The notes below the pieces were generated by a model. The model was not told the origin of the DNA. It saw only the letters and a list, made by a program, of their open reading frames with translations, and made no database searches. Of a stretch of DNA of 64,000 nt, positions 13,852 to 30,393 are shown piece after piece. This DNA is from Affinundibacterium macrobrachii. GTDB lineage: Bacteria > Pseudomonadota > Gammaproteobacteria > Burkholderiales > Burkholderiaceae_D. Within the stretch, counting starts at the first letter, position 1; the number at the start of each line of letters is the position of its first letter. Where the stretch lies: positions 496,001-560,000 of the forward strand of contig NZ_BMYT01000001.1 in NCBI RefSeq assembly GCF_014652415.1, given 5' to 3'. A program made the position numbers and the translations under genes.

Positions 13852-13924
13852 TCGTCAGCGCAACCATTAACGCAAATATTTGCAAGCACCTAAACCTCGA
13901 CTTAAAAAATATAGATCACTTTTT

Positions 13925-14557
13925 ATGATAAGAATTTTAATCGCAGACGACCACACTATCATGCGAGAGGGGCTGAAACGCATACTCGATGGCATCGAAG
14001 ATATTCAAGTAATCGGAGAAGCAATTGATGGCCATGACACCATTACTAAAGTTCGCTCAGAGAAATTTGATGTGTTGCTATTAGATCTTTCTATGCCTGG
14101 TCGTAGCGGTGTTGACTTAATTCACCAAATCAAAGAAGAGTTTCCCAAATTACCGATTTTGATTCTCACGATGCATGAAGAAGAACAATACGCGGTTCGC
14201 GCAATTCGAGCAGGCGCGAATGGCTATCTCACCAAAGAAAGCGCTGGAACACAGTTGGTGACCGCACTACGAAAAGTCGCGTCTGGTCGACCTTACATCA
14301 GCATGGAAGTTGCCGAACAACTGGCGATGTCAGCCATGCCATCGGCGAATAACGACCTTACTCACAGCGCCTTATCTGATCGAGAATTTGAAGTTTTCTG
14401 TCACTTAGCCAAAGGCAAATCCATCACCGAGATTGGTGAAATTTTGCACTTGAGTGTAAAGACCGTGAGCACGCACAAAACCAGAATTATGCAAAAGATG
14501 GAATTGCAATCCATATCCGAACTCGTTCAATATGCAATGACGCATCATTTACTGTAA
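13925..14557 (+). CDS. NarL/FixJ-type response regulator with LuxR HTH
   Basis: This is a two-component response regulator that should bind DNA after phosphorylation. The receiver domain has the acidic pair DD at 8-9, the phospho-acceptor Asp54 in LLLDLSMPG, ILTMHE and the lysine in YLTKES. The C-terminal LuxR HTH (about 145-205) contains LSDREFEVFCHLAKGKS and LSVKTVSTHKTRIMQKM. I start at the ATG at 13925; an upstream in-frame ATG (13880) adds 15 residues ahead of the conserved MIRILIADDH. Regulators of this class pair with HisKA_3 kinases, and one such kinase is encoded 3 kb downstream (17557-19533). The pairing is an inference. Confidence 0.92.
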   Translation: MIRILIADDHTIMREGLKRILDGIEDIQVIGEAIDGHDTITKVRSEKFDVLLLDLSMPGRSGVDLIHQIKEEFPKLPILILTMHEEEQYAVRAIRAGANGYLTKESAGTQLVTALRKVASGRPYISMEVAEQLAMSAMPSANNDLTHSALSDREFEVFCHLAKGKSITEIGEILHLSVKTVSTHKTRIMQKMELQSISELVQYAMTHHLL

Positions 14558-14633: not shown

Positions 14634-14859
14634 CTATTGCGCAACACCATCAAATAAAGCTCGCATTAATTGATTCATTCCGTTATTAGCAATCAAATTC
14701 ACATCAAGCTTGACTCCCTCCCCCCTAATTCAACCATCAAAATAAATCGCAGTTGATGGCGCGCCAGCCGTAACTCTTACCTATCAGGTCTGAGCAATTA
14801 CAGCATTCAACGCCACCCCACTAGGAATATTCCTACAAATCGCTGGAAAACTCCCACAC

Positions 14860-14889
14860 TTTAAATCAGCGAACACTGATTTAAATCAA
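14860..14889 (+). promoter_or_regulatory. 26-bp inverted repeat overlapping an FNR-like box
   Basis: TTTAAATCAG (14860-14869) and CTGATTTAAA (14876-14885) form a perfect ten-base inverted repeat with a six-base spacer. The right arm continues into CTGATTTAAATCAA (14876-14889), which matches nine of the ten defined bases of the FNR consensus TTGAT-N4-ATCAA. A CATAAT -10-like hexamer follows at 14903-14908. With that -10, a bound FNR dimer would overlap the -35 region, consistent with repression or autoregulation. Start-site mapping is absent, so the sign of regulation is unknown. Confidence 0.5.
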
Positions 14890-14960: not shown

Positions 14961-15335
14961 ATGAACTTGTTTATTGTCGAAGATTCACTTCTGATTCAAA
15001 ACCGTTTGGTACGGTTTATCGAAGAACTACAAGATGTCAGTATCGTTGGCATCTCGCCCGACATTGGCAGTGCCTACGACAAAATCTTACAAGCACATGC
15101 AGATGCCATGATTCTTGATATACAACTCAGTGACGGTAACGGTTTAGTACTACTAAAAAAAATAAAACTAACTCATCCGGAAATTCGCGTTGTTGTATTA
15201 ACCAATCATTCAAGCGAGGCAAATCGCATGCAAGCATTGCGCGCCGGCGCTGATAGTTTCCTCGATAAATCAACTGATTTCGAGCAAATTCCCAGCATCT
15301 TACATCGCTGGCAAGCAACTGGTTCCGCGCATTAA
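14961..15335 (+). CDS. Receiver-only response regulator
   Basis: The 124-residue product is a single CheY-like receiver domain without an output domain. It has the acidic pocket near residues 7-8 (VEDS), phospho-acceptor Asp53 in MILDIQLSDG, the conserved threonine in VVLTNHSS and a lysine in FLDKST. It has no DNA-binding or enzymatic domain, so it would act by protein contact or as a phosphate sink. The FNR-family gene follows after 57 bases on the same strand, suggesting co-transcription. The specific partner is unknown. Confidence 0.88.
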   Translation: MNLFIVEDSLLIQNRLVRFIEELQDVSIVGISPDIGSAYDKILQAHADAMILDIQLSDGNGLVLLKKIKLTHPEIRVVVLTNHSSEANRMQALRAGADSFLDKSTDFEQIPSILHRWQATGSAH

Positions 15336-15392: not shown

Positions 15393-16259
15393 ATGTCTAA
15401 CTTATCTACAATTTCACAAGCAAGCCGTTTTACTGATGCATCTAACTTGTCAGATAATGCATGGCGTCAGCACGGTAGCCTTTGGTCGAATTTGCGCCAA
15501 GTTTGTGAATTACTCTCAATCCCAGCGCCAGTCACCGTGGATGACGAGAACACGCTGTTCCAGCATGTTCGTTTTAAAGCAGGTCAACGTATTCATCGCA
15601 TCGGTCAAGCATTCGACACTTTGTATATCGTGAACTCAGGTTTCTTGAAAACCGTACATATTGATGAGTATGGCAATGAACAAGTATTGAGCTTCCCAAT
15701 GAAAGGCGATTTGCTCGGCATCGATGGCATACACAAACAACATTACGCCTCCGAGGCAATTGCACTAAGTGACTGCGATATCATTCTTTTGCCCTACAAA
15801 GCATTTACTTCACTCGGTCGCACACACGTCGAATTAGAACAAGCAATGTTCAGTGTCATGAGTAGAGAAATCGTTCGCGAACAAATGATGATCAGTATGC
15901 TGAGCGCACTCAGTGCAGAAGCAAAAGTAGCACGTTTCCTTACCAATTTAGGTGAACGATTCAATCAAATGGGCTACTCTGGTCGCAGCTTTAACTTGCG
16001 CATGACACGTCAAGAAATTGGTAGCTACTTAGGTTTAACATTAGAAACTGTTAGTCGTACATTGTCCGCTCTAAATGAGTTGGGCATGATCTCAGTAGAA
16101 CAGCGCGAAATTAATTTACTTGATCCTGTGGCACTTAAAACCTTACGCCGTCTCCCACCAGCTAAAGCACGAATCAAAGTCGCAGAAAAAGTCAGCGCAC
16201 TCGTCAACAAAAATTTGCTTCCACAATGGAATGGTGAATTAGCAGCGGCGATGAATTAA
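15393..16259 (+). CDS. Crp/FNR-family transcriptional regulator without the N-terminal Fe-S cysteine cluster
   Basis: The product has a cyclic-nucleotide-like beta-roll (about 50-160), a dimerisation helix and a C-terminal winged HTH with LTLETVSRTL. The E-T-V-S-R sequence is the FNR recognition-helix signature that reads TTGAT half-sites. Oxygen-sensing FNR proteins use three N-terminal cysteines plus one central cysteine as 4Fe-4S ligands; here only Cys38 and Cys128 exist in the whole protein. Cys128 (SDCDI) aligns with the central ligand. The protein is longer than E. coli FNR (288 residues) with extensions at both ends. It lies between a receiver protein and a universal stress protein gene. 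Likely targets include the FNR box before ccoN. Confidence 0.93.
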   Translation: MSNLSTISQASRFTDASNLSDNAWRQHGSLWSNLRQVCELLSIPAPVTVDDENTLFQHVRFKAGQRIHRIGQAFDTLYIVNSGFLKTVHIDEYGNEQVLSFPMKGDLLGIDGIHKQHYASEAIALSDCDIILLPYKAFTSLGRTHVELEQAMFSVMSREIVREQMMISMLSALSAEAKVARFLTNLGERFNQMGYSGRSFNLRMTRQEIGSYLGLTLETVSRTLSALNELGMISVEQREINLLDPVALKTLRRLPPAKARIKVAEKVSALVNKNLLPQWNGELAAAMN

Positions 16260-16342: not shown

Positions 16343-16415
16343 ATATGCATTAGAAATCTGTTCAAAAATCTATTTAAAAAATTCCGCTACACAAACTCTT
16401 CATGTGAGGTATGCC

Positions 16416-17255
16416 ATGTCATATAAAACCATCTTGGTACATGTAGATGAATCAAAAAGTGCGCTCAAACGTACACAATTAGCCCATCAAATCGCAGCAA
16501 AATTCGATGCCCATGTGACTGGCGTAGCACTCACAGGAATCTCACGTTATATCTTCGAAAGCACCGATCTTGGTGTTGGCGATCCAAATATGATGTTGCA
16601 CCTGACTGGTTTACGCGAGCGCGCAGAGCGCGCAATAACGGCATTCAAGCAAGCAAGTCTCGACTTGGGCGCATCCACTAGCGAATGTCTCATTGCCAAT
16701 GATGAAGCGAATGGCGGCTTGGGATTACGGGCGCGTTACGCTGATTTAATTGTGATCGGACAAACGAATCGAAACGAACCATCCCCGTCGGTGTTGTCGG
16801 ATTTTCCTGAGTTTATGATTGTCAATTCTGGCCGTCCTGTTCTCATTACGCCTTATAGCACTGAAATCAATACAGTTGCAGAGCGCTGCTTGATCGCTTG
16901 GGATGGTAGTCGTGAGGCTGCGCGCGCTTTAACCGATGCCCTACCTTTACTAAAAACCAGTAAAGTAGTACAAGTTTTAATCATTAACCCAGAGAAGCAA
17001 AGTGAAGCGCACGGTGAAGAGCCTGGCGCTGACATCGCATTGTTCTTAGCTCGACATGGCGTCAACGTCGAAATTTCTACAAGATTTAGCAGCCAAGATA
17101 CTGGCTCCAGTATTCTTGCCGCCTGCAAAGAATGGAGTGCGGACTTGTTAGTGATGGGTGGTTACGGTCATTCTCGTTTCCGCGAGATGATTATGGGTGG
17201 CACAACCAGAACTATTCTAGAAAAGATGACGATTCCTGTTTTGATGTCGCATTAA
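16416..17255 (+). CDS. Universal stress protein with two UspA domains
   Basis: The 279-residue protein is a tandem fusion of two UspA folds. The first begins YKTILVHVDESKSAL; the second begins with RCLIAWDGSREAARAL and ends with the ATP-binding loop in VMGGYGHSRFREMIMGGTTRTI (glycine pattern G-x2-G-x9-G-T). Such proteins accumulate under energy or oxygen limitation in many proteobacteria. I start at ATG 16416, which has GAGG six bases upstream; a GTG at 16404 is in frame but contains that ribosome-binding site. It lies between the FNR-family regulator and a histidine kinase. Confidence 0.92.
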   Translation: MSYKTILVHVDESKSALKRTQLAHQIAAKFDAHVTGVALTGISRYIFESTDLGVGDPNMMLHLTGLRERAERAITAFKQASLDLGASTSECLIANDEANGGLGLRARYADLIVIGQTNRNEPSPSVLSDFPEFMIVNSGRPVLITPYSTEINTVAERCLIAWDGSREAARALTDALPLLKTSKVVQVLIINPEKQSEAHGEEPGADIALFLARHGVNVEISTRFSSQDTGSSILAACKEWSADLLVMGGYGHSRFREMIMGGTTRTILEKMTIPVLMSH

Positions 17256-17556: not shown

Positions 17557-19533
17557 ATGACAAACGCTACCAGCATCGAACTCAAACGCATTACTTGGAT
17601 TAGTATTGTCTTATTTCTTTTATCCTGCTATCTCTGGTCGCAACGAGAGTTTTTCTCACAGTTTAAAACTCCAAGTGCATTGACCATCCACACCGGTCTC
17701 GAAACGGCAACCATCATTATTTTTACCTCGGTCTTTATGGTTTGCTGGAATGCGTTTGGCAATCTACGCAAGCGCAGTAGCTTAATACTGGCTGTAACTT
17801 TCTTAAGCGCGTCGATTTTTGGTTTCTTTCATGCGATTTCATTTCAAGGTATGCCTGGCTTTCCGGCAGCAATCGACATGCATAAATCATTGAGTTTTTG
17901 GCTGCTCTCGCGCTATTTAATCAGCCTTACTTTATTAGGTTTGGTTCTGCAAACTCGTGATATCGATATTTCAGAATCCATCTCGAAGATTAGTGTGTAT
18001 TTAGGATTGGTGCTCACTATCATCGCCACGTTTATTATTTTCACTTACCCTGAAATATTTCCAACCACCTATCAAAAAGGCTATGGGCAAACAACATTTA
18101 AAATTCATTGTGAAATGGTCTTGGTTGCGCTCAACTCACTTACCGCTGGTTTATTTTATCGACAAATAGTTCAATCAGATCGTATTGATAGTGAGGGGCA
18201 TCTCAAAATAAAACGGAGTATGTTGTTCTTTGCCGCTGCGATGATGGCGATCTCAGAAACCTATTTTTCTTTGTACAGTTTTCCTGACGAAATTTTCGTG
18301 GTAATTGGACATGCGTTCCAAGTCATCGCTGCGCTGGCTATTTATCGCGGCATGGTTAGCATCAATATTCACGCCCCCTACTCTAGCTTGATTCAAACCA
18401 CTAAAGATCTACAGCAAACGGCGGATGAATTGCTGATTCACAAGCAAAGATTGACCGGTGTGATTGAAACTGCCATGGACGGCATACTGACAATCAACGA
18501 TCAACACAAAATCATATTAGTGAATCCTGCCGCGGCACAAATCTTTGGATACACAGTCGAGGCTTTAATTGGCGCCTCAATCGATATTGTGATTCCTATG
18601 CGCCACAGAAACGTGCATAGCGCACACGTTCATCAATTTGGTGAGCGTGGCACTACGCGTCGCAAAATGGGGGGAAATTTTGATGATTATTACGTTACTG
18701 GATTACATGCAGACGGAACAGAATTTCCTATCGAAGCATCTATCTCTAGTTTGATTGAAAATGAAAAACGTTTTTACACCGTGATTTTCCGCGACATTAG
18801 CGAACGTAAAGCCGCAAAAGAAAAGATGGCGCAATATCATTCTGAGTTAACCCAGCTTTCTTCCGCACTGCAAAGTATTCGTGAAGAAGAACGTAAACAC
18901 ATAGCACGTGAATTGCATGACGATTTGGGACAATTACTTGCAGCCCTTCGCATGGATTTGTCTTTACTTCAGCGCGATCAAAACATGACCGATAAGTCGC
19001 GTCTAACAGTATCGAGCATGGATCAATTATTGTTGACCTCGATCACCACTTTACGTCGTATCGCAACCGATCTGCGGCCAAGAGCACTTGATGAAGGCGG
19101 TCTATTTTTTGCATTGCAGACCTTGCAGAAAGAATTCTCTCAACGTCACGGTGTTCATTGCGATTTAATCGCAGACGAAGAACAACTCATACTCGATGAT
19201 GAACGGAGTACAGCAATTTATAGGATTATCCAAGAATCCTTAACCAACGTTGCTCGTCACGCAAAAGCAAATCACGTCGATATTCAATTCGAACGAACAG
19301 AGGATGCTCTCCAATTTGTGATTCAAGATGATGGTCGCGGCATCGAAGAAGGCGCAATGAACAAAACACGATCATTTGGTCTGGTGGGCATGCGTGAACG
19401 CATTAAAGCAATGCAAGGCAAATTCAAAGTTCGCAGTGAAGTTGGAAAAGGAACTCGAATAGAAATTCACATTCCATTAGATACGCCAATTTATAATCCT
19501 GCAAAAACATCAACTCATTTGGTGCAAAATTAA
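17557..19533 (+). CDS. Membrane histidine kinase: MASE3-like sensor, PAS, HisKA_3, HATPase
   Basis: The first 260 or so residues contain several transmembrane helices and resemble the MASE3 membrane sensor domain (GFFHAISFQGMPGFP and SRYLISL). A PAS domain follows (about 303-420, starting TGVIETAMDGILTIN, with NPAAAQIFGYT). The dimerisation domain is HisKA_3, with phospho-acceptor His454 in ARELHDDLGQ. The ATPase domain has the N box in ESLTNVARHAKA, DDGRGI and a G-rich SFGLVGMRERI. Kinases of this NarX/DegS-like class phosphorylate LuxR-type regulators; the one at 13925 is the nearest candidate. No Shine-Dalgarno sequence is evident. The ligand of the MASE3 domain is unknown. Confidence 0.92.
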   Translation: MTNATSIELKRITWISIVLFLLSCYLWSQREFFSQFKTPSALTIHTGLETATIIIFTSVFMVCWNAFGNLRKRSSLILAVTFLSASIFGFFHAISFQGMPGFPAAIDMHKSLSFWLLSRYLISLTLLGLVLQTRDIDISESISKISVYLGLVLTIIATFIIFTYPEIFPTTYQKGYGQTTFKIHCEMVLVALNSLTAGLFYRQIVQSDRIDSEGHLKIKRSMLFFAAAMMAISETYFSLYSFPDEIFVVIGHAFQVIAALAIYRGMVSINIHAPYSSLIQTTKDLQQTADELLIHKQRLTGVIETAMDGILTINDQHKIILVNPAAAQIFGYTVEALIGASIDIVIPMRHRNVHSAHVHQFGERGTTRRKMGGNFDDYYVTGLHADGTEFPIEASISSLIENEKRFYTVIFRDISERKAAKEKMAQYHSELTQLSSALQSIREEERKHIARELHDDLGQLLAALRMDLSLLQRDQNMTDKSRLTVSSMDQLLLTSITTLRRIATDLRPRALDEGGLFFALQTLQKEFSQRHGVHCDLIADEEQLILDDERSTAIYRIIQESLTNVARHAKANHVDIQFERTEDALQFVIQDDGRGIEEGAMNKTRSFGLVGMRERIKAMQGKFKVRSEVGKGTRIEIHIPLDTPIYNPAKTSTHLVQN

Positions 19534-19732: not shown

Positions 19733-20068
19733 ATGGCAATCTCAGCGCTCAACACTGGTTTATCCGGCATGAAGGCATATCAAGGCGCCTTAGATAGCAG
19801 CGCTAATAATGTTGCCAACGCGCTCACGAAAGCTTACCAGCCACAGGTAGCAAGTTTTCAAGAGGCGCCAACTAGCGGCGTGCGAGTCAATATCAGTAAA
19901 GAAAGTCAAGAATTAGCGGCGCAAGAAAATCTAGATCGTCCTAGTGGTACCGATCTAGCGACCGAGATTACTAATAGCCTGCAATACAAAGCAGGGTTTG
20001 AACTATCTGCCAAAGTAGTGAAAACTGCTGATGAAGTGCTTTCAAGCTTGCTTGATATTCGTAAGTAA
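19733..20068 (+). CDS. Orphan short flagellar-rod-like protein (FlgB/FlgC-type ends)
   Basis: The 111-residue product has both terminal signatures of axial flagellar rod proteins. The N-terminal part has INTGLSGMKAYQ-like sequence (here LNTGLSGMKAYQGALD) and SSANNVANALTKAYQP, matching the NN-AN-x-T-GY motif. The C-terminal part resembles the coiled-coil end with LQYKAGFELSAKVVKTADEVL. The middle is only about 45 residues, shorter than FlgC. A ribosome-binding site (CAGGAG) precedes the ATG. No flagellar gene is nearby, so whether it enters a flagellum is unknown. Confidence 0.8.
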   Translation: MAISALNTGLSGMKAYQGALDSSANNVANALTKAYQPQVASFQEAPTSGVRVNISKESQELAAQENLDRPSGTDLATEITNSLQYKAGFELSAKVVKTADEVLSSLLDIRK

Positions 20069-20932: not shown

Positions 20933-22363
20933 CTAGATTAATTTAGAATACTTCGCACCGCTTTGACGTGACAAATAATGATCGAAAATCATACTAAAAG
21001 CACGCACGAACATACGCCCTTTTGATGTCACACTCACGCTCGCGTCATTCAGATCAAGCAAGCCCTCGTCAGCATAAAAGCGCGCACGTTCTAATTCGTC
21101 GTGAAAATATTCGGCAAAAGAAATCTGATATTTTGCTTCGATCTCAGCAATATTTAAGGTCGTACAACACATCAAATCCATGATAATTTCGCGACGCAAT
21201 AAATCATCTTGACTCAGATGAAAGCCTTTCTCGACTGGCAAATGCCCAGCATCAAGCGCGGCATAATACTCATCCAAGGTACGTAAATTTTGCACGTAAG
21301 AAGCGCCGATCTTACCGATAGAAGACAAACCCAACGCAACCAAATCACAATCTGCACGCGTGGTATAGCCTTGGAAATTGCGATGTAAAGATTTATCTTT
21401 GACCGCCAAAGCCAAACTATCATCCGGCTTCGCAAAATGATCCAAGCCTATGTAGACATATCCCTCTGCGAGTAAACGACGCAAAGACATTAAGAAGATT
21501 TGCAAACGTTGTTCAGCAGATGGCAAATCTACTTCGTTAATGCGACGCTGCGGTTTAAAACGGGTCGGTAAATGGGCGTAATTGTACAGAGCAATGCGCG
21601 CAGGAGATAAGGCGATGACTTGATCTAAGGTACGCGCAAAGCTTTCCAAACTTTGCTTTGGCAGTCCATAAATCAAATCAAAATTAATCGACTGGAATCC
21701 AACTGCGCGACTTTGATTAATACATTGTTCTACCATCGAATAAGGTTGAATCCGATGAACCGCAACTTGTACTTGTTCGTCAAAATCTTGTACACCCAAG
21801 CTGGTACGATTAAATCCAAGCTCAGCTAGCAACTGTAGCGTCTGCGTTGTTACTGTGCGCGGATCGATTTCGATCGAAATTTCAGCATCATCTGCGAAAT
21901 CAAAATGCTCGCGCAGCATTGCCATCAAACCACGCATTTCATCTTCACTCAAAAATGTTGGCGTGCCGCCACCAAGATGAAGCTGAGAAACCACTTCGCG
22001 TTCGGTCAAGTATTGCTTCACCAACTTAAGCTCTTGCGCGAGGTAACTTAAATAAATGGCAGACTTACTTCTATCCTTAGTAATCACCTTATTGCATGCG
22101 CAGTAGTAGCAAAGTGAGGCACAAAAAGGAATATGAATATACAAAGAGAGCGGTGGCTTATTATTTGACTGGTTTCTTTGCTGGAGGTACTGAATATACG
22201 AAGTTTCAGTGAAGTCAGTATGAAAACGATCTGCTGTCGGATACGACGTATATCGTGGCCCCAACGAATCGAAACGTCGAATCAAGTCTTCAGAAATTTC
22301 TAAGTGATCGTTGACCTTGTGCGAAGTGGCGTTTGAACTTGCGGATAATGTTGAGATTGACAT
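20933..22363 (-). CDS. hemN: Oxygen-independent coproporphyrinogen III oxidase
   Basis: HemN is the radical SAM enzyme that converts coproporphyrinogen III to protoporphyrinogen IX without oxygen. The cluster motif is CASLCYYC (Cys81, Cys85, Cys88), in HIPFCASLCYYCACNKVITK, and the N-terminus has the family's GPRYTSYPTADRF. Length 476 residues is a full HemN rather than the shorter HemW. It lies in the cbb3 gene run, where it supports haem supply for the oxidase at low oxygen, and is predicted to be under the FNR box at 28216. Confidence 0.96.
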   Translation of the reverse strand: MSISTLSASSNATSHKVNDHLEISEDLIRRFDSLGPRYTSYPTADRFHTDFTETSYIQYLQQRNQSNNKPPLSLYIHIPFCASLCYYCACNKVITKDRSKSAIYLSYLAQELKLVKQYLTEREVVSQLHLGGGTPTFLSEDEMRGLMAMLREHFDFADDAEISIEIDPRTVTTQTLQLLAELGFNRTSLGVQDFDEQVQVAVHRIQPYSMVEQCINQSRAVGFQSINFDLIYGLPKQSLESFARTLDQVIALSPARIALYNYAHLPTRFKPQRRINEVDLPSAEQRLQIFLMSLRRLLAEGYVYIGLDHFAKPDDSLALAVKDKSLHRNFQGYTTRADCDLVALGLSSIGKIGASYVQNLRTLDEYYAALDAGHLPVEKGFHLSQDDLLRREIIMDLMCCTTLNIAEIEAKYQISFAEYFHDELERARFYADEGLLDLNDASVSVTSKGRMFVRAFSMIFDHYLSRQSGAKYSKLI

Positions 22364-26717: not shown

Positions 26718-28157
26718 TTAGGCGTGAGCCGAATGTGCTGGCAATGCAGGAATCGCATTGTTCACAGGTTTTGCGAGCATCATCGTTTTTGCAACGTTGT
26801 ACACCATCAACAGCATACCGCTCAGATACAAGACGCCACCAACGAGACGAATCACATAGTATGGATAAGTCGCTTTTACAGACTCAACAAATGAGTAAGT
26901 CAAAGTACCGTCTTCATTCACTGCGCGCCACATTAAACCTTGCATCACCCCAGCAATCCACATCGCCGCGATATACAAAACGATACCAATCGTCGCAATC
27001 CAGAAATGCATTTCAATCAAACGCTTGCTATACATTTCTGTTTGACCAAACAGACGTGGAACGAGGTAATACAAACTACCGATAGAAATAAAGCCGACCC
27101 AACCCAAGGCACCGGAATGTACGTGACCAACAGTCCAATCAGTGTAATGTGAAAGTGCATTGACCGTCTTGATCGCCATCATTGGACCTTCAAAAGTAGA
27201 CATACCGTAGAAGGACAAAGAAACAATTAAGAAACGCAAGATAGGATCTGAACGCAACTTACTCCAAGCACCAGACAAAGTCATGATACCGTTGACCATA
27301 CCGCCCCATGAAGGTGCCAACAAGATCAAAGAGAACAACATACCAATCGACTGCGCCCAATCAGGCAATGCGGTGTAATGCAAGTGATGTGGACCCGCCC
27401 ACATGTATGTAAAAATCAATGCCCAGAAGTGAACGATGGACAAGCGATAAGAGTAAACCGGACGACCAATTTGTTTTGGAACAAAGTAGTACATCATGCC
27501 CAAGAAACCAGCTGTCAAAAAGAAACCAACCGCGTTATGGCCGTACCACCATTGCACCATGGCATCTTGCACACCAGAATAAGCGGAATAAGATTTCATG
27601 AACGACACTGGCATCGCCGCACTATTGACGATATGCAGAACCGCTACCGCAACAATGAAGGCACCGAAAAACCAGTTCGCGACATAGATATGCTCTACTT
27701 TACGCTTAACGATCGTACCGAAGAAGACGATCGCGTAAGATACCCAAACTACCGCGATCAAAATATCGATAGGCCATTCCAATTCGGCATACTCTTTACC
27801 TTGAGTAAAACCCAGTGGCAGACTAACTGCAGCGGCAACAATCACCAATTGCCAGCCCCAGAACACGAACTCGATCAATGGTCCACCGAATAAACGCGCA
27901 TTCGTAGTACGTTGAACAACGTAAAACGAGGTCGCAAATAAGGCGCAGCCACCAAAGGCAAAAATCACCGCATTGGTATGCAATGGACGCAATCGCCCAT
28001 AGCTCAACCAAGAAATACCGGATAAAAATTCTGGCCAGGCAAGTTGAGTTGCAATCAATACGCCAACCAGCATACCGACTACGCCCCAAACTACTGCCAT
28101 GACAGAAAATTGGCGAACAACTCTATAGTTGTAGGTGTTTTCATTGTTTATTGTCAT
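26718..28157 (-). CDS. ccoN: Cytochrome cbb3 oxidase catalytic subunit CcoN
   Basis: CcoN is the haem-copper oxidase catalytic subunit of the high-affinity cbb3 oxidase. Twelve hydrophobic segments are apparent. Haem and CuB ligand contexts are visible: [47 protein letters not shown] and [17 protein letters not shown]. Length 479 residues. It is the first gene of the operon, preceded by the FNR box at 28216-28229. Confidence 0.98.
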
Positions 28158-28187: not shown

Positions 28188-28229
28188 AGGATAACAATCG
28201 TTCCTCAGAGCTACATTGATACAAATCAA
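28188..28229 (-). promoter_or_regulatory. FNR box and class II promoter of the cco operon
   Basis: TTGATACAAATCAA (28216-28229) matches the FNR consensus TTGAT-N4-ATCAA at all ten defined bases. On the minus strand, TATCCT (28193 to 28188) lies centred 32 bases from the box centre, the spacing expected for an activator at -41.5 with a -10 element. A start site near 28181 would leave a leader of about 25 bases before ccoN. Confidence 0.8.
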
Positions 28230-28473: not shown

Positions 28474-30393
28474 TCAAGGTGCGCTTGTAGTCGATTTCGC
28501 GTTCAAAGCTGTCTTGTTAATTTCAACTTTTGCCTTTTTCTTTAAGGCTTCCACAAAGCTGTAAATATCTTGTTGCGCCGCTGCATTCTCTAACTGTTGT
28601 GCCTCACTTGCACGACGAGCAGGATCTGGCGTGCCGGCCGCCACTTTGGCAATACGATACACACTATAGCCAACACCAGGCACATCGACACCAACAAATG
28701 TTGGCAATTTTGAGACGTCGGCTTTCATGATCGCCAATAAAGCATCATTGCTTAAATCGGCCTTCTTCAAGCGAGACACTGTCTTCACTTCAGAAAAATG
28801 ATTGGCACTATCTGCCGATTTCAATGCAGCTAATTTTGCCTCACCATTTTTCTTCGCCAATGCCAAAGCCTCAACTTCTAACACCTTAGCCTGGATCAAT
28901 GTTTTAACATCGTCAAATGGGCGCTTTGAGGCTGGCTTGTACTCAACAACGCGGCCAGATACAAGCGTATTTGGTGCGATTTCAATCGCCTCAATATTAT
29001 TCTTTTTCTTTAACGCGTCATCAGAAAAAATCGCGCTCAAGAATTTCGGATTATTTGCGACCATGGTTGCTGGCATACCTGGAATAGGCTGACGATTTAA
29101 GTTTGAAACCTTCTCGATTTTCAACTTCAATTTATCAGCGACTGCTTGCAAACTGTCAGCTTGCTCATCTACGGTATTGGTAAAAGTCTCAGCTGCTTCA
29201 GCATAGGCTTTCGTTGCTTTCTGCTTCTTAATATCGCTAATCAACTGCGCCTTCACTTCTTCCAACGGCTTCACAGCAGCTGGCTTAATCGCTGTCAATT
29301 GAATGATATGAATACCGAAATCGGTTTGCACCAAACCACTAATTTCACCTTCTTTGAGTTTGAATGCCGTTTCATCAAACGCCTTAACCATCGCGCCGCG
29401 CGCAAAGAAATCTAAGTCACCACCACGCTCAGCAGAGCCCGGATCTTGTGAATTTTCTTTCGCTAACTTTGCAAATTGTGACGGATCTTTACGCACCTGC
29501 GCCAACAAGGCTTCTGCCTTCGCCTTCACATTTTTTGTTTCGTCTGCAGAAGCATCTTTTTTCAAATTCAGCAGAATGTGGCTCGCACGACGCAATTCAT
29601 CTGTCGAATAATTTTTCATGTTTTGATCGTAATGCGCTTTAACTTCAGCATCAGCAACCACAATATGCTCTGCCAACACGTCGTTACTGAGTACGACATA
29701 TTCAGCATTGACCAACTCTGGAATTTCAAATTGTTTTGCGTTCTTATCGTAATAAGCACGCAACATCTCATCAGTGATCTTGATTGAAGCAGCAAAATCT
29801 TTCGCATTAAAATTAAGCGCTTGAACTTCGCGCTCTTGCTCTGAGATTAGCGCAATGCGATTCGCAATTGTTTTAGAACTGATCGCCGTATTTTGAACCG
29901 CACCAATTAACTGCTGCATGGTCATATCTTGGCGCAAACTTGCCTCGTACATCACAGGTGTCATGCCTTGCATCGCTAACAAACTTTTATAGCGCTCTCC
30001 GTCAAAAGAGTTGTCCTCTTTCTTCAATCCTGGCGTCTCCAAAATAGTTTGTTGCAATACTTGGTCAGATACGGTCAATTTACTCTTCACGGCTTCTGCA
30101 GTCAGTGCTTTTCGAGCGATCAAATCATCTAACACATTTTGGCGCGCTTCTGGCGTGTTCAACATCTGCGCATCGAATTCAGGCCCATAAGCTTGTTTCA
30201 AACGATCGAGTTGATTACTCAAAGCTTGATCAAATTCTTGTTGACTAATAGCTTGACCAGCGACCGTCGCGACATTGGTTCTCACATCGCGTTGCGTGAA
30301 ACTTTCAATACCAAAGAAGGCAAATGAAGGGAAAATAATCACCAACAGCACGCCTTGCATGATGCGTTTATGGGTACGGATATACTCAAACAT
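28474..30393 (-). CDS. ppiD: Periplasmic folding chaperone / PPIase PpiD
   Basis: PpiD is a membrane-anchored periplasmic chaperone near the Sec translocon. The 639-residue protein has a short cytoplasmic N-terminus and one membrane helix (about 12-30, [20 protein letters not shown]), a SurA_N-like domain, and a parvulin (PPIC) domain about residues 265-360 with [23 protein letters not shown] and FGIHIIQL. The C-terminal chaperone region follows. It lies downstream of tRNA-Asp and hupB, a conserved gammaproteobacterial and betaproteobacterial order (hupB then ppiD). Confidence 0.96.

Follow-up and report, generated by a model that had tools for sequence, protein, structure and literature searches.

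The rhizobial cascade of FixL or hFixL, FixJ or FxkR, and FixK acts on the sequence TTGAT-N4-ATCAA, and the K-box reads GTTACA-N4-GTTACA (PMC7888657). A FixLJ and fixK cascade has also been described in Burkholderia (PMC5234846). FixK2 contains a redox-sensitive cysteine in its DNA-binding domain and is described as devoid of the residues that make up the dimer-monomer switch in FNR (PMC12937710). According to PMC5039431, two-cysteine proteins of the FNR-like kind are common among Gram-positive bacteria, and CprK is inactivated via disulphide formation (PMC2610375). Among the papers listed by searches of the open-licence PMC literature, we found no account of the Undibacterium system presented below.

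We analysed a window, i.e. a whole stretch of 64,000 nucleotides, which includes the gene of a Crp/Fnr protein termed FNRL here (Table 1). FNRL resembles the FNR proteins of E. coli, Aliivibrio and the canonical Burkholderiales in its fold as judged by sequence, in the E..SR helix and in an acidic residue at the place of Asp154, and its locus shares with theirs an FNR box before ccoN and a position beside the cbb3 genes. It differs from them by keeping one of the four cluster ligands, by extending beyond E. coli FNR at either end, and by a control that appears to rest with a two-component system. Like the FixL-FixJ (or hFixL-FxkR)-FixK systems, the locus combines a kinase and a response regulator (RR) with a cluster-free Crp/Fnr gene, and TTGAT-N4-ATCAA precedes the cbb3 oxidase genes in the window and in Undibacterium. 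Unlike in those systems, FNRL fits the NCBIfam Fnr model (163 bits, below the cutoff of 228) far better than the FixK model (88 bits, below the cutoff of 300), the RR scores best as UvrY/SirA/GacA (179 bits, below the cutoff of 280) rather than as FixJ (85 bits, cutoff 255), the palindrome of the FNRL promoter is not the K-box, the kinase carries MASE3, and an extra receiver-only (REC-only) protein is present.

The FLP, FlpA/B, FlpS and CprK proteins are likewise FNR-like, with two cysteines and an incomplete ligand set (in part after PMC5039431), but they belong to Gram-positive bacteria, and the comparison is by description. Fnr1 and Fnr3 of Herbaspirillum seropedicae, a related bacterium, control respiratory genes and genes of universal stress proteins in the manner of FNR, whereas they are described as ligating a cluster with conserved cysteines (PMC5934665; compared by description). 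Our favoured reading, which we hold to be moderately probable on the sequence evidence, is that FNRL is a cluster-free FNR paralogue forming the output of a FixL-FixJ-FixK-like two-component cascade with few targets, perhaps one.

Table 1. Features of the FNRL locus and the neighbouring cbb3 region, in window coordinates
Feature	Position	Strand	Basis
NarL/UvrY-type response regulator (RR), REC + GerE HTH	13880..14557	+	Pfam Response_reg, GerE
Perfect palindrome TAGGAATATTCCTA, candidate RR operator	14822..14835	.	upstream-region alignment, genome scan
FNR/FixK-type box CTGATTTAAATCAA, 9 of 10, centre 78 bp before REC	14876..14889	+	motif scan
Stand-alone receiver (REC-only) protein	14961..15335	+	Pfam Response_reg; Asp/Lys pattern of receivers, by eye
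FNRL, regulator of FNR type that lacks the 4Fe-4S ligand set	15393..16259	+	ORF translation, Pfam, NCBIfam, alignment
Cys38 codon (FNR Cys29 position)	15504..15506	+	alignment
Cys128 codon (FNR Ser119 position)	15774..15776	+	alignment
Crp/Fnr helix-turn-helix with ETVSR, residues 202-233	15996..16091	+	Pfam
Universal stress protein (USP)	16404..17255	+	Pfam Usp; same place in 20 fetched Undibacterium stretches
MASE3-PAS-HisKA_3-HATPase sensor kinase	17557..19533	+	Pfam
hemN, cbb3 neighbourhood	20933..22363	-	name by eye from translation; synteny
ccoN of cbb3 oxidase, then ccoO, ccoP, ccoG, ccoH	26718..28157	-	names by eye
Exact FNR box TTGATACAAATCAA, centred 65 bp before ccoN (- strand)	28216..28229	+	motif scan

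Cluster-ligand positions and the cysteine pair of FNRL

The FNRL open reading frame starts with ATG and encodes 288 residues with the Pfam domains cNMP_binding, HTH_Crp_2 and Crp. Its closest named relative is a protein of Undibacterium baiyunense (99%), and among solved proteins, those closest in sequence are regulators of the FNR type (best E 2.8e-37). We aligned 75 distinct FNRLs of the family, comprising the best-scoring matches and hand-picked further copies rather than every match; they were left from 81 distinct proteins after removal of two canonical FNRs, L133-L135 (~30% identity) and the degenerate L144. Across all 75 proteins, 55 of the 288 positions of FNRL are invariant (MAFFT). 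The sequence-only reading had ascribed an FNR recognition helix (ETVSR) to this protein, and the alignment bears this out: E218, S221 and R222 match E209, S212 and R213 of E. coli FNR and are invariant in 75/75 FNRLs. Its count of two cysteines, at positions 38 and 128 of the 288-residue window protein, is likewise correct. The excluded L133, L134 and L135, from three Undibacterium genomes, represent another Crp/Fnr group in which the FNR ligand set is missing (27-28% identity across the aligned region); their helix reads E-S-V/I-S-R, and a gene for a universal stress protein lies near L135.

In a small tree that we rooted on canonical FNR, and that carries a long-branch warning naming f204, all FNRLs fall on one side with an SH-aLRT value of 100. 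A tree with CRP, a pSymA ORF and L004 as outgroups, whose branches were very long and in which canonical FNR came out within FNRL, was set aside. The matches to FNRL in the plasmid collection are all below 60% identity; FNRL may or may not belong to the Burkholderia FixK/lxa group.

To map the cluster ligands, the FNRLs were aligned in MAFFT to the FNR of E. coli together with 21 regional FNRs of the canonical kind. Here Cys38 coincides with the FNR ligand Cys29, and a pairwise HMMER alignment with Aliivibrio FNR instead sets it opposite Cys23; since it faces a ligand in either alignment, one ligand position is kept. The places of Cys20, Cys23 and Cys122 are occupied in FNRL by Ser29, Ser32 and Ile131, and these three ligand positions are lost in 75/75 FNRLs. 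Specifically, the Cys20 place varies (K, N, S, R, E, T or D among the 75 proteins), Ser32 is invariant, and the Cys122 place is Ile in 73 and Val in two. The Cys128 column holds Ser119 in FNR and a cysteine in CRP, so Cys128 is not the fourth ligand. The earlier statement that the N-terminal Fe-S ligands are gone is right in that the set is incomplete, but has to be amended in that Cys38 keeps one ligand position, that of Cys29. The description of FNRL as a cluster-ligand-poor relative of FNR holds, which confirms the earlier observation.

Cys38 and Cys128 are both present in 75/75 family FNRLs, spaced by 90 residues in 67 of them and by 89-92 in the remainder, and such retention at near-constant spacing argues against chance. 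These are the only cysteines in 33 of the proteins, and 42 have extra cysteines elsewhere. Moreover, Cys38 is one of just three invariant positions (S32, C38 and L41) in the first 55 residues. This conservation favours a thiol switch, in which a reversible Cys38-Cys128 disulphide, or mixed oxidation, would control dimerisation or DNA binding and FNRL would itself be the redox sensor; we judge this the strongest rival to the cascade, but unlikely. It also draws support from E163, which stands at the place of FNR Asp154, the dimer-switch position, and is Glu in 75/75; the pSymA ORF, which we take to be FixK, has Ala there. Precedents are found among the two-cysteine FNR-like proteins of Gram-positive bacteria, such as the thiol-switch regulator FLP of Lactobacillus casei, and in CprK.

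The pair is only partly kept outside the family, where six FNRLs from two other families have both cysteines in 2/6, Cys38 in 3/6 and Cys128 in 5/6. Among these, the three f204 proteins have Ala at Cys38 and also lack Ser32, and L181 has Ser at Cys128. L182, a family paralogue found later, has neither cysteine, which brings the count to 75/76 in the family; three further rows with the pair (L189-L191, with L189 from the same genome as L123) are uncounted. Hence the conservation of Cys38 and Cys128, complete among the 75 close relatives, does not extend to the distant FNRLs or to L182, and the pair cannot be a general mechanism. Cys128 may be structural, because CRP also has a cysteine in this column, and in Streptococcus suis FlpS the C129S exchange left arcABC expression unchanged (PMC5039431). 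An AlphaFold2 model from the window FNRL and 10 close relatives (pLDDT 53.5) is too poor to place the thiols or to measure the Cys38-Cys128 distance. Together, these alignments suggest that the pair may matter in one clade, and not as a general mechanism or an obligatory sensor. The NarL-type RR next to the main FNRL copies and the palindrome ahead of FNRL are kept more constantly than the pair.

A clearly less probable alternative is that a small molecule or haem occupies the cNMP-type pocket, which would make FNRL an allosteric regulator independent of the kinase. The cNMP_binding domain is indeed intact; however, the closest solved relatives are of the FNR type, which PMC12937710 describes as having no ligand in the pocket, and the linkage to the operator and the kinase would go unexplained. 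Very improbable, in turn, is an unusual metal or Fe-S site made of Cys38, Cys128 and non-cysteine ligands such as Ser32. The invariance of Ser32 (Cys23 place) and Cys38 (Cys29 place) in 75/75 would suit such a site, and PMC5039431 mentions non-cysteinyl ligation of a cluster in L. lactis FlpA, but the Cys20 place is variable, the Cys122 place holds only Ile or Val, and the f204 proteins are without Ser32 and Cys38. Finally, a canonical 4Fe-4S FNR with its cysteines hidden by a sequencing or annotation error, for which no supporting point was found, is refuted by the recurrence of the same residues in dozens of genomes and further opposed by the four cysteines of the canonical FNRs of the genus (L131, L132) and by the sub-cutoff Fnr score.

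The gene cassette, the palindrome and the FNR boxes

The cascade that we favour builds on the neighbours of FNRL, which in the window follow the order RR, REC-only, FNRL, USP and kinase; the likely true start of the RR is an in-frame ATG at 13925. Twenty Undibacterium stretches were fetched from the 36 genus genomes with FNRL, and all 20 have the order RR-REC-FNRL-USP, with the kinase next in 18. ccoN lies inside the stretch in 17 of the 20; L098 and L099 are without it, and the L093 stretch ends early. The five-gene order also occurs in L179 (G701, another family; genes partly named by eye), and L184 and L185 show the order HK-RR-REC-FNRL.

Among 20 primary family loci outside Undibacterium, an RR homologue (72-76% identity) lies upstream of FNRL in 15, and a REC-only homologue was found beside FNRL in none; in the remaining family loci that were searched, FNRL does not adjoin cbb3 genes. 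The RR adjoins FNRL in one of eight further family copies, and it is not beside FNRL in L119-L122 or in six Undibacterium second copies. A kinase was established directly upstream of the RR in five of the 15 primary loci with an RR, and eight of the 15 have no ORF of at least 200 codons there; with just five adjacent kinases, the kinase must be elsewhere in most of these loci. Pfam was run on eight of the 11 ORFs found upstream of the RR (leaving out L116, L185 and L190), and seven of the eight proved to be HisKA_3 kinases; their input domain is PAS or CHASE-PAS, or none was recognised. Where kinases adjoin the RR, the regulator and its target stay alike and the sensor changes. The suggestion of the sequence-only reading that FNRL depends on its neighbours appears well directed, but the RR and the kinase, acting through the promoter, are better candidates than the receiver-only protein, which was not found next to FNRL in the 20 primary family loci outside Undibacterium.

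The exact palindrome TAGGAANNTTCCTA occurs once in the 4.27-Mb Undibacterium genome, and the reversed control gives zero sites. Among 43 genomes of the genus, 29 hold exactly one exact site (29 sites), compared with 15 sites in 10 of the 43 for the reversed pattern. By coordinates, 26 of the 29 sites lie just upstream of FNRL and two elsewhere (G009, G041), and that of G026 lies on a contig end between the RR and a REC fragment of the same cassette. G041 holds the exact palindrome but no FNRL, and of the 36 genomes with FNRL, 10 lack an exact site in front of this gene.

Within 700 bp upstream of FNRL, the palindrome is the top score of the locus in 20/20 Undibacterium loci, 21/21 other primary loci, 4/5 usable loci outside the family and 8/9 further copies, with L113 and L183 (one family and one f203/f204 locus) left out for short upstream sequence; among Undibacterium second copies, it is the best of the locus in two of six and not in the other four. 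The scores are 9-12 of 12, with one 8, and random windows of the same loci give 7-10. Canonical-FNR loci score 6-9 of 12, i.e. background level, and the 12 of 24 that nevertheless count as best-of-locus are put down to ties in short loci. As the loci are related, the binomial p-values of this test overstate independence.

BvgA is a NarL-family regulator, and we compared the palindrome with its heptad. The palindrome reads as inverted ATTCCTA heptads, one base off the BvgA heptad TTTCCTA (PMC4314077), and thus fits a NarL-family regulator; the RR would be expected to bind here. The view that the RR has few targets is based on exact 12-of-12 sites, a criterion that would overlook degenerate ones; many FNRL promoters elsewhere score 9-11 of 12. 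Further FNRL copies lie away from the RR (L125-L130 and L136-L143), and some keep the palindrome upstream (exact in L140 and L143, one mismatch in L142), which suggests that one RR could drive both copies. Additionally, a second inverted repeat, AAATCAG-N6-CTGATTT at 14863-14882, shares bases with the FNR-like box ahead of REC-FNRL; in the aligned Undibacterium sequences, the left arm of this repeat looks conserved.

The ten bases of the REC box are conserved at 0.95-1.0, with a flank mean of 0.56 (21 sequences). A 9-of-10 box lies at -58 to -78 before REC-FNRL in 17/20 Undibacterium loci, and that of L104 is visible in the alignment too; in most other loci, the box before FNRL scores 5-8 of 10. 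The ccoN box is exact in 16 of the 17 fetched Undibacterium loci with ccoN and matches 9 of 10 in the last, its bases being conserved at 0.94-1.0 against a surrounding mean of 0.62. In L103 (G029), a good FNR box before REC-FNRL is missing, and both the palindrome and an exact box at ccoN are retained. G036 and G041, which carry canonical FNR, also have the exact ccoN box, so the FNR box outlives the regulator swap.

Across the genome, 12 exact FNR boxes were found versus three for the reversed-pattern control; in the window, FNR-box-like sites with at most one mismatch are not enriched (8 vs 5.9 expected). We checked the nearest starts of all 12 exact boxes: the ccoN box lies 65 bp from the start, and the other exact boxes have, by eye, no clear respiratory gene at their nearest starts. 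Another regulator of the same genome, L004, has an ETFSR helix and could read FNR boxes. On contig 3 of G000, near 29872 (L079), an exact box lies 13 bp before the start of an NrdB-like gene (class Ia ribonucleotide reductase, by eye).

Distribution of FNRL and canonical FNR

The 43 genomes of the genus divide into 36 with FNRL, two with canonical FNR without FNRL, and five with neither. Canonical FNR was not found in any of the 36, some of which are incomplete (down to 65%). In G036 and G041, canonical FNR stands beside the cbb3 genes and FNRL is absent; the canonical FNRs of the genus have all four cysteines. As for the five genomes with neither gene, G026 has an assembly gap, G022 and G033 are less complete assemblies, the complete G032 has no close ccoN either (best E 1.9e-4), and in G030 (96% complete) ccoN is present and preceded by an exact box. 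We infer that in Undibacterium the FNRL cassette took the place of canonical FNR at the cbb3 locus.

In the wider family, FNRL is present in 126 of 195 genomes (E <= 1e-90; count from tables). Canonical FNR (E <= 1e-60) is missing from 36 of the 126 and accompanies FNRL in the other 90, so the swap from FNR to FNRL is not general. Among 300 genomes of the order, FNRLs beyond the family were found in six genomes, which belong to two families. These six were read as FNRL among 117 order genomes with a match, and the remaining matches (37-46%) were taken as canonical FNR; L186-L188, the three remaining order matches examined, have four cysteines each. In 369 genomes of the class, just G000 and one canonical FNR (L171) passed E 1e-50.

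A proposed two-component cascade

To relate the kinase to known sensors, we compared its PAS domain (residues 294-430) with solved structures. Fourteen relatives were obtained at E <= 0.001, eleven of them FixL or DosP and the other three a 'heme PAS sensor protein', YddU and a multi-sensor kinase, and FixL and DosP structures are the first matches. His354 lies opposite a FixL His (HMMER) that we take to be the haem ligand, and its column holds His in 25/29 aligned rows, some of them fragments. The distal Arg of FixL is missing, as judged by eye. These matches are suggestive of a FixL-like haem sensor, for which the PAS domain is a candidate.

The ligand loss, the conserved cassette, the palindrome with the boxes, and the failure to find canonical FNR are seen at the sequence level; onto them we project a cascade whose binding, phosphorylation and sensing steps are all conjectural. 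The membrane kinase at 17557, with MASE3 and a FixL-like PAS domain, would sense oxygen or the respiratory state and phosphorylate the NarL/UvrY-type RR at 13880, which would bind the palindrome at 14822-14835 and turn on REC-FNRL. FNRL would then bind FNR boxes, raising its own operon (box 14876) as well as the cbb3 oxidase via the box before ccoN (28216). The main doubt comes from E163: with an acidic residue preserved at the place of FNR Asp154, FNRL may retain gating after translation, perhaps by thiols.

A broader scenario, which we regard as doubtful, is that an FNR subfamily common in the family handed its sensing to a dedicated two-component system, with changeable kinases and an RR having about one high-affinity operator per genome, the FNRL promoter. 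Cys38 and Cys128 would add a second gate in the family, so that FNRL would act as an AND gate for the kinase signal and the redox state of the cytoplasm, and the Undibacterium unit would have replaced canonical FNR at the cbb3 locus with the box unchanged. If the cascade is real, it would be a natural loss of the sensing part of an oxygen switch, its DNA target unchanged and its job moved to a two-component system. The change of sensor at a fixed promoter is directly testable, because Undibacterium has both states (FNR in two and FNRL in 36 of the 43 genomes). The analysis also provides a predicted operator and target for an RR that is not assignable to a named regulator, and cautions that a gene annotated as FNR-like in these genomes may not encode an oxygen sensor with an Fe-S cluster.

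Between the kinase and the cbb3 genes, the window also encodes a stand-alone protein of 111 residues (19733-20068), flagellar rod/hook-like by eye. Apart from L098, L099 and L103, where it is absent, a homologue occurs in the Undibacterium stretches (17/20).
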